A model generated the notes under the pieces. That model searched no databases. It was not told the origin of the DNA and worked only from the letters and a program-made list of their open reading frames with translations. A program made the translations under genes and the position numbers. A stretch of 64,000 bases of DNA from an uncultured Pseudomonadales bacterium (GTDB lineage Bacteria > Pseudomonadota > Gammaproteobacteria > Pseudomonadales > Azotimanducaceae): positions 1 through 64,000 of the forward strand of contig CALIKQ010000014.1 of the NCBI GenBank assembly GCA_938017975.1. The letters are read 5' to 3'. Position 1 is the stretch's first letter, and each line of letters begins with the position of its first letter. Positions 58,629-60,561 of the stretch are shown piece by piece.

Positions 58629-59087
58629 ATGGCGCACCACGAAAACCAAAAGCTGATTCGCTGCCAATTATCATCCCCCAGCGGCACAACACAAACCCGC
58701 TTTATAGAGTTTGAACTCTTCAAGTTGTGGCAATACATGATGCAGACGAAACATGGCTTCGATATCTCAGATTTAACAATGAGCCTCTGGGTGAGCGAAC
58801 AAGACTATCAAAGCAAGCAAAGCCTTTATGAGAGAAGCGGCGATATTATTTCTGTGGACCGACTCACGGTTTCCATTTTTGATCAACGCAACGGATTTAC
58901 CCATGTAACCCATCGTTTCGCGCATCGGGATGACACCGACCAAGTGAAGTCCATTCTCTTATCTCATGTACCCGAGGCACTCATCCAAAGCGACGACTTC
59001 ACGCTTGAGATTAGCCAAGGCCGAACCATTGAGAAAGGACCTATTTCAGGAATGAGCGAGATCAGCCTTGGCCTGTCTAACGATTGA
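58629..59087 (+). CDS. Conserved-looking hypothetical protein, 152 residues
   Basis: I do not recognise the family. The ATG at 58629 has AAGGGA eight bases upstream and gives a soluble, slightly acidic protein beginning MAHHENQKLI with no signal peptide, membrane helix or Cys-rich motif. Residues 15-75 carry a His/Gln/Met-rich region (LWQYMMQTKHGFD); the rest looks alpha/beta, with QRNGFTHVTHRFAHRDD in the middle. Codon use is like that of its neighbours. It stands alone between rsmE and a trpS remnant. Confidence 0.65.
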   Translation: MAHHENQKLIRCQLSSPSGTTQTRFIEFELFKLWQYMMQTKHGFDISDLTMSLWVSEQDYQSKQSLYERSGDIISVDRLTVSIFDQRNGFTHVTHRFAHRDDTDQVKSILLSHVPEALIQSDDFTLEISQGRTIEKGPISGMSEISLGLSND

Positions 59088-59273
59088 TGGGAACTTTTAC
59101 CCATCAGGCTACGGCAAACATCAAGCAATCTAACCGCTTTGAAATCGCCAGTATTCCGTCATTTAAGTGATCTTACCTGCTTAAAACCGGCATTGAAGCA
59201 CTCTGCTGCATTTCAGCTTTGGCTTGCTCAGCCGCACACCCATCTGTCCACTAATCTGCTTTAAGAATCCTCT

Positions 59274-59498
59274 ATGAACAGCTCCAATGACGCCGCACAA
59301 CGCAAGACGATACTTTCCGGCTCCACCACAACCGGTAACCTCACCCTTGGGAATTACATCGGCGCGGTGTCGAACTGGAAAGCCGTGCAGCAAGACTGTC
59401 TGCGACAGTTGATGCGGGCTGGCGCGGAAAAAGCGACTGCAAGCGCCTCAGCAACCTTCACAAATGTTTATGAGAAAACGAGGTTGTTGCCGCGCTGA
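59274..59498 (+). pseudogene. trpS: Tryptophanyl-tRNA synthetase remnant with large in-frame internal deletion
   Basis: The 74-codon frame joins the two ends of TrpRS. Residues 10-41 match the family N-terminus (KTILSGSTTTGNLTLGNY, containing the HIGH-type TxGN motif, then IGAVSNW). Residues 42-74 match the C-terminus (LMRAGAEKATASASATFTNVYEK then the end TRLLPR). About 250-260 codons between, including the KMSKS loop and the whole tryptophan pocket, are missing. The frame is kept across the join (near 59394-59399) and both ends stay intact. AGACTGTCT, an odd palindrome, sits at the join. It cannot be an active synthetase; a full trpS must exist elsewhere if the cell charges tRNA-Trp. Confidence 0.85.
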
Positions 59499-59613
59499 CT
59501 GATAGCCCTCCGGCAGTTTTAGCGGAGTTACCACCGCGCGACGGTGATCGCTGACTGTTTCATCTTGTGCGAACTGGTTACAATCATCGATCGATACATT
59601 AATGGAGGCGAAA

Positions 59614-60561
59614 TTGACTCGTCACCTCGGAATTGTGATGGACCCCATCGAGTCCATCAATCCTAAAAAAGACAGTACTTTTGCCATGATGTTGGCTGCT
59701 GAGCAGCGAGGCTGGCGGATCTCTGTGATGACCCTTGGCGATCTATCTCTTGATAAAAACGTGTTGAAACTGAACTATCAGACGATCACGGTTACAGACG
59801 ATCCAAAAGACTACTTCCAGAGCGCTGGTTTTTCGAAGGGAGATGCCAACGACTTTGATCTTATTTTAATGCGCAAAGACCCACCTTTTGATATGGATTT
59901 CGTCTACGCGACCTACCTACTTGAGTTCGCTGAGCACGCAGGAACCCCGGTATTTAACCGGCCAGGTAGTATTCGAGATTGCAACGAGAAATTGTTTGCA
60001 CTGCAATTCCCAAATTGCGTACCCGAAGTGATCGTCACCTCAAACCCAGCCCAACTAAAAGCTTTTCATGACGAACATCTGGACATTATTTTGAAGCCTC
60101 TGGACGGCATGGGAGGACAATCTATTTTCAGGGTCAAAGCCAAAGATACCAATCGCAACGTGATCATCGAAACCTTAACCGAGCTCGGAACCCGCAAGAT
60201 TATGGCGCAGCGCTTTATTCCAGAAATAAAAGACGGCGATACTCGAATATTATTGATTAACGGTGAACCTGTGCCGTACGGCCTTGCTCGAATTCCCTCT
60301 GCTGGGGAAACACGGGGCAATCTCGCGGCCGGCGGCAGCGGTGTCGCCAGACCGCTGACTGATCGAGATCGATGGATTTGTGATGAAGTCGGCCCAGTCT
60401 TGCGTGAAAAAGGGCTCTTGTTTGTTGGTATTGACGTCATTGGTGATTATCTCACCGAAATAAACGTGACCTGCCCTACCTGCATCCGGGAACTCGACAC
60501 CAGCCAAGGCTTGGATATTGCCGGAAATTATCTTGATCACCTCGAAACAGAGATAGGCTAG
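59614..60561 (+). CDS. gshB: Glutathione synthetase
   Basis: An ATP-grasp ligase adding glycine to gamma-glutamylcysteine. The start MTRHLGIVMDPIESINPKKD is the typical one; I choose the TTG at 59614 because GGAGG ends five bases before it and the nearby ATG at 59602 overlaps that site. ATP-grasp features: ILKPLDGMGGQSIF (about 145-158), RNLAAGGSG (about 230-238) and VGIDVIGDYLTEINVT (about 268-283). The usual NVTSPT reads NVTCPT. 315 residues. It is followed three bases later by tonB as in Pseudomonas. Confidence 0.95.
   Translation: MTRHLGIVMDPIESINPKKDSTFAMMLAAEQRGWRISVMTLGDLSLDKNVLKLNYQTITVTDDPKDYFQSAGFSKGDANDFDLILMRKDPPFDMDFVYATYLLEFAEHAGTPVFNRPGSIRDCNEKLFALQFPNCVPEVIVTSNPAQLKAFHDEHLDIILKPLDGMGGQSIFRVKAKDTNRNVIIETLTELGTRKIMAQRFIPEIKDGDTRILLINGEPVPYGLARIPSAGETRGNLAAGGSGVARPLTDRDRWICDEVGPVLREKGLLFVGIDVIGDYLTEINVTCPTCIRELDTSQGLDIAGNYLDHLETEIG

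Follow-up and report, generated by a model that had tools for sequence, protein, structure and literature searches.

Remains of an accessory tryptophanyl-tRNA synthetase gene, probably shortened by deletion at a short repeat, upstream of gshB in an uncultured Azotimanducaceae bacterium

Examination of a 64,000-nucleotide stretch of contig CALIKQ010000014.1 (hereafter the window) revealed an open frame at 59274-59498 on the plus strand, running from ATG to TGA and coding for 74 amino acids, that joins the start of a tryptophanyl-tRNA synthetase (TrpRS) directly to its end. This frame is very probably a pseudogene, left by a laterally acquired accessory trpS gene that was cut by a repeat-mediated deletion and whose loss was tolerated. 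Against such a reading, the frame itself has no stop. In the following, G000 designates the genome of the window, G003 and G004 two other genomes of the same genus, and G173 a genome of another genus.

A reduced trpS frame and the resident synthetase

The 74-codon frame was assigned to an accessory trpS of E. coli type by NCBIfam models, by phmmer against PDB chains and by comparison with a G173 protein. The NCBIfam trpS model TIGR00233 matches it with an E-value of 1.3e-6 and 27.9 bits, far under the cut-off of 176.75, and PF00579 gives 16 bits against a Pfam cut-off of 21.1; with both scores below the curated cut-offs, the frame does not qualify as a functional TrpRS. The phmmer search returned bacterial TrpRS chains with both ends in order. 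For PDB 6dfu (337 residues), query residues 7-41 align with 3-37 and query residues 41-69 with 303-331, at a whole-sequence E-value of 1.8e-8, the C-terminal stretch by itself being weak (independent E-values of 2.9 for 6dfu and 0.4 for 5v0i). Both structures belong to what we take to be the E. coli/Haemophilus type.

Much closer matches were provided by an intact TrpRS of G173. Frame residues 1-41 are identical to it at 37 of 41 positions (E 7e-24), and frame residues 39-74 match its residues 303-338 at 28 of 36 positions (E 1e-16). A chance resemblance of an intergenic frame to TrpRS was discarded on the PDB and G173 matches at both ends. Alignment to G173 places the TrpRS start, with its TLGN motif, in codons 1-41 (59274-59396, plus strand) and the last 33 codons of the enzyme in codons 42-74 (59397-59495, plus strand). 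The initial annotation, made from the letters of the window, had placed the TrpRS start at residues 10-41 and its end at residues 42-74; both ends do align, although homology to G173 already begins at residue 1. It had also described frame, start and family-typical termini as intact, as they are here, and had put the loss at about 250-260 codons, slightly less than the 264 codons (792 bp) measured against G173.

Both termini of bacterial TrpRS of the E. coli/Haemophilus type (TIGR00233; PDB 6dfu, 5v0i) are thus found in order in the remnant, which differs from these enzymes in lacking 264 codons, KMSKS among them. The KMSKS motif is present in the G173 protein, within the segment deleted here. 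Having kept TLGN, the HIGH-type (TxGN) motif, and lost KMSKS, the frame does not carry the pair of motifs expected of a functional TrpRS. In the TrpRS fold the lost segment would hold most of the tryptophan pocket and of the tRNA-binding region. A product without the KMSKS loop and these parts should not work as a synthetase.

A PF00579 search of G000 yielded three matches in two genes, both apart from the remnant. The first gene was read as a 437-aa tyrosyl-tRNA synthetase. The second, on contig C48, encodes a 406-aa TrpRS that scores 720.3 bits with PRK12283 against an NCBIfam cut-off of 572; its neighbour is presumably scpA. A second trpS in the genome had been predicted, and a complete one is there, of another subfamily. 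When this resident TrpRS was aligned with the two ends of the frame, as had been proposed, the N end matched weakly (13/27 residues) and the C end not at all, and its candidacy as the source of the remnant was rejected on these grounds. The resident protein is of the same enzyme family as the remnant but, with 406 aa and another subfamily, is not its parent; the remnant stems from a TrpRS subfamily other than the resident PRK12283 type. Loss of the accessory gene would have been tolerated since this complete TrpRS gene, presumably functional, stays in the genome.

An intact relative and the deletion junction

When 206 family genomes were searched at the DNA level, four of them (G000, G003, G004 and G173) gave matches below an E-value of 1e-5. 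Nine genomes matched at E <= 0.01, and five of these, in which the matching stretch was 20-40 bp long (E 0.001-0.01), were discarded as chance. In G173 both ends of the remnant lie about 1.08 kb apart, inside an open gene for a 338-aa protein (C96:2611-3627, minus strand) that reaches 350.6 bits for TIGR00233. The 42 bp preceding the frame in the window (59232-59273, plus strand) are homologous to the leaders of the G173 trpS and of the G003 remnant, as determined by blastn and gap-free comparison. By sequence and by this common leader, the G173 gene is the same gene as the remnant; it differs in being complete, in another genus and in another neighbourhood, of FMO-like monooxygenase, alpha/beta hydrolase and kynureninase genes.

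Over 222 bases, the identity between the remnant and the gene of G173 is 87.8% (79.7% at third positions), whereas gshB, the only core gene compared, is 60.3% identical between G000 and G173, with 33.4% at third positions. Being closer to a distant genome than this one core gene allows (88% against 60%), the trpS gene is best explained by lateral movement. The contig of G173 was not taken as a stray because its G+C content of 48.6% fits the rest of that genome (48.2% and 48.4% in two other stretches). The spare trpS therefore appears, from these sequence comparisons, to have been acquired laterally and not to be a duplicate of the resident gene. As for a carrier, none of the phage (35) and plasmid (135) records matching the G173 TrpRS reached at least 60% protein identity, nine viral-contig loci with relatives of it showed 53% at most, and a scan of genome contigs gave none above 57% among the best 80 matches listed. 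Phage or plasmid cargo was set aside, no carrier having been seen in the phage, plasmid and viral-contig scans for relatives of the intact protein.

The G173 gene also accounts for the position of the junction. A 9-bp word, CAAGACTAT, occurs in it at positions 118 and 910; the two copies agree in codon phase and are 792 bp apart, a multiple of three that corresponds to 264 codons. It is the joint longest direct repeat of the gene (it ties with one other), and four repeat pairs reach 8 bp. A single copy, CAAGACTGT, remains in the window at 59391-59399 (plus strand), differing by one base from CAAGACTAT of G173. The lost segment is thus bracketed by the repeat in the intact relative, and the window retains one copy at the junction. 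The base triplet beside the junction is TGT in G000 and G003 and TAT in G173; the repeat length is read from G173, and 7 rather than 9 bp are possible in the lost ancestor if its second copy was already TGT.

The junction is observed; as its mechanism we infer replication slippage or single-strand annealing, in the lineage of the window, between the two in-phase 9-bp repeats, which would have removed 792 bp and left codons 1-41 fused to the last 33 codons. The loss would be clean and in frame because the repeats are in phase and their spacing is a multiple of three. The second mark of a deletion pseudogene is the complete PRK12283-type TrpRS gene of G000, assumed to be active. A single clean deletion in a spare trpS copy, as initially suggested, is borne out by the one repeat copy at the junction together with that separate complete gene.

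Related remnants and their insertion sites

A search of the 15 genomes of the genus, run to an E-value of 10, identified a real match to the trpS remnant in three of them, G000, G003 and G004; the matches above 1e-5, with E-values of 0.1-10, were dismissed as chance. No intact copy of this trpS was found in any searched genome of the genus, and at the locus itself, where close relatives might have kept the full-length gene, only G004 has a trpS remnant. The full-length ancestor at the gshB site is for this reason a reconstruction.

In G004 the remnant occupies the same site as in G000, between a gene of no assigned function and gshB, and contains a one-base frameshift, a TAG codon and a deletion different from that of G000. 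It keeps gene positions 118-183, which are missing in the window, and is without the C-terminal piece. Because the pieces kept at this one site differ, the ancestor of G000 and G004 had a longer, probably complete trpS. The N-terminal parts of the two remnants differ at 34 of 165 bases, in keeping with a gshB identity of 83.0% and descent from one insertion. The ancestor of G000 and of its sister species G004 would accordingly have gained a second trpS, of E. coli type, upstream of gshB. The initial annotation had held the event to be recent or the product tolerated; 'recent' holds only in a relative sense, the site being common to G004 with its gshB 83% identical.

In G003 the junction is identical to that of the window and the site is another one, between genes read from their sequences as slyD-like and enoyl-CoA hydratase-like. 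This remnant has an in-frame TAG, and its TLGN is changed to ILRN. Identity between the remnants of G000 and G003 is 81.1% (77.0% at third positions), against 70.0% and 41.0% for gshB, which points to separate arrivals of the two trpS copies rather than descent from the common ancestor of these genomes. At informative sites of the N-terminal part, three of four pair G000 with G003 and one pairs G000 with G004. This pattern, and the TGT common to G000 and G003, would be explained if the donor allele already had TGT. Most likely G003 received the same gene in a transfer of its own, with a deletion following there at the same repeat, so that the matching junctions of G000 and G003 are probably independent, parallel deletions.

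The recurrence of the junction also bears on the assembly. A full-length gene whose middle was lost by assembly collapse is highly improbable: G000 is indeed a genome of 3.19 Mb in 79 contigs, 96.54% complete with 2.66% contamination, and assemblers can err at repeats, but 9 bp are short for such an error, no separate piece of an E. coli-type trpS occurs elsewhere in G000, and the same junction is found at another site in the separate genome G003 (8 contigs). Two doubts voiced in the initial annotation are answered in this way, the end segments aligning with TrpRS and a collapse being unlikely given a junction that recurs in G003.

The flanks of the window remnant were compared with those of its relatives. 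The upstream neighbour (58629-59087, plus strand) is a conserved gene of no assigned function, present in 14 of the 15 genomes of the genus and without a Pfam or NCBIfam match; stop codons occur inside its matches in G001 and G009, and a weak PHROGs match (E 0.0069) is to a family labelled toxin. The downstream neighbour is gshB, the glutathione synthase gene (59602-60561, plus strand; NF003573, 432.6 bits against a cut-off of 272). The stretch between them, first given as 526 bp, is 514 bp by the frames (59088-59601). With the stop codon counted, G000 has a gap of 517 bp and G004 one of 456 bp; eight of the 14 genomes have 81-102 bp here and four (G013, G001, G009 and G011) 254-389 bp, the ends of the gap being taken from partial matches in G009 and G011 and from the second or fifth codon of gshB in 12 genomes. 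The other 12 genomes gave no trpS match at the gshB site (G003, which is among them, has its match elsewhere). Because four relatives also have wider gaps, the G000 insert can be delimited only approximately.

Shuffle tests were applied to both flanks. The 139-bp upstream spacer (59088-59226, plus strand) is matched only in G004 among the 58 genomes searched, its own included; shuffled sequences reached the score in 0/2000 cases for G000-G004 and in 1457/2000 for G000-G173. This spacer may be part of the insert or older. The 3' flank (59499-59557, plus strand) is common to the three remnants of the genus, with 0/2000 shuffles reaching the score for G000-G003, 0/2000 for G000-G004 and 2/2000 for the third pair of the genus. 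Compared with G173, 3/2000 were obtained for G000, a weak resemblance, and 315/2000 for G003 and 1824/2000 for G004, which show none.

At the slyD site the gap is 349 bp in G003 and 22-31 bp in nine of 11 other loci; as it is 23 bp in the four closest relatives of G003, the insert there measures about 326 bp, and nearly all of it is homologous to window positions 59227-59551. Wider gaps downstream of slyD, of 427 and 233 bp, occur in G014 and G007 (L092 and L093); neither resembles trpS, and the site may readily take up inserts.

In another history, the deletion happened once and the shortened mini-gene then moved between species, to the gshB and slyD sites; in one variant, the G000 copy was later replaced by such a moved mini-gene. 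In favour of this, G000 and G003 agree in the junction, in the TGT and at three of the four informative N-terminal sites, the G003 insert consists almost solely of the block common with G000, and its 3' limit lies near the point where, by eye, host sequence seems to resume in G000. The G003 region further contains two inverted pairs, one of which, a perfect 10-nt pair (L005 1419-1428/1843-1852), straddles the insert, and none of the 11 other slyD loci contains the exact words of its arms. These arms, however, lie inside both flanking genes and do not abut the insert, no inverted repeats were reported for window positions 59050-59640, and the gene positions 118-183 that G004 keeps at the same site, missing in the mini-gene, indicate a longer ancestral copy there. 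We regard spread of a mini-gene as unlikely, and return to a longer, probably complete gene lost by separate deletions. The inverted-repeat results, with attC judged by eye, are also what was observed on an integron cassette or transposon cargo, for which an attC site, terminal inverted repeats or a target duplication would be expected.

Changes unique to the G003 remnant comprise seven synonymous and 16 nonsynonymous ones, with 72% nonsynonymous expected under neutrality (p 0.82), which fits free decay. Those unique to the window remnant comprise eight synonymous and nine nonsynonymous ones against the same 72% (p 0.10, not significant). A slight deficit of replacements is as expected if part of the divergence dates from the working gene. 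A scan of 58950-59700, which covers the sigma-70-type consensus only, showed neither a promoter nor a terminator pattern. The gap gave no Rfam match above the gathering score, and a non-coding RNA was rejected, the sole match (15.4 of 50 bits, E 0.77) lying far under that score and being taken as chance.

Retention of the 74-aa product because it is useful, for instance as a small peptide that binds nucleotides or interacts with TrpRS, is very unlikely. Frame, start, stop and TLGN are all intact in the window and replacement changes are slightly under the neutral expectation, but this deficit is not significant, both other remnants of the genus have stops, G003 has lost the motif, and the sigma-70-type scan gave no promoter; positive evidence of retained function was not found for the product. 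The pseudogene would owe its open frame to a repeat spacing that is a multiple of three and to limited time for decay, and not to demonstrable selection.

Accessory TrpRS genes in the family

Of 37 genomes of the genus and family that were searched, 35 had a TrpRS match, for the most part long-type as judged by frame length; a short-type gene (E <= 1e-40) was present in about 19 of 206 family genomes. Except for the G173 gene itself, these short-type genes are 35-55% identical to that of G173, scattered, and set in varied neighbourhoods. Accessory TrpRS genes seem to have been acquired repeatedly in the family.

In G173 (C96; L217 1240-5869), trpS and an FMO-like monooxygenase gene point towards each other, while an alpha/beta hydrolase gene is oriented divergently to trpS and has a kynureninase gene (TIGR01814, 295 bits) after it; this neighbourhood is possibly a tryptophan-breakdown cluster. 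Ten of its proteins were compared with 16 other short-type trpS neighbourhoods of the family, G199, G200 and a second G064 copy being left out. Kynureninase had no match in any of the 16. A related hydrolase lies next to trpS in G064 (38%) and an FMO-like gene in G157 (28%), and enoyl-CoA hydratase matches were found in the neighbourhoods of G095 and G124. A constant tie between accessory trpS and tryptophan breakdown was dropped as a general rule, kynureninase being missing from all the neighbourhoods compared. A literature search did not find tryptophanyl-tRNA synthetase, kynureninase and gene cluster together, which does not prove absence. G064 (C139; L224 4680-7243) has an accessory trpS that is only distantly related to the G173 gene, at 44% identity; it is divergent from the hydrolase gene, with a short overlapping frame listed between the two.

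Second TrpRS genes are known for indolmycin resistance and tryptophan nitration (PMC9437257). These are likewise second, divergent TrpRS beside a housekeeping one, and are described there as working enzymes, whereas only the ends of the gene remain here. Another comparison is offered by the class I 'protozyme', a 46-residue N-terminal aminoacyl-tRNA synthetase fragment excised as a laboratory model (PMC8835825). The remnant resembles it in retaining TrpRS residues 1-41 with TLGN, and differs in having the C-terminal end of the enzyme after residue 41. By this analogy, the 74-aa product might conceivably be expressed and fold as a natural counterpart of the protozyme, with an N-terminal ATP-binding crossover capped by the C-terminal end of TrpRS itself, weakly binding ATP or activating amino acids, and be tolerated or used by the cell; we see hardly any likelihood for this.

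Small in-frame proteins of such origin can be mistaken for new genes in annotation, and it is the junction repeat, together with sister remnants, that reveals the likely origin of such a frame. The gene upstream of gshB is decaying in an ordinary way, and what sets it apart is how clearly its history can be read; it is a well-resolved example of the gain and loss of an accessory aminoacyl-tRNA synthetase gene. At least two arrivals of a spare trpS in a single genus seem to have been followed by loss through deletions, the same short repeat probably having served in two species.
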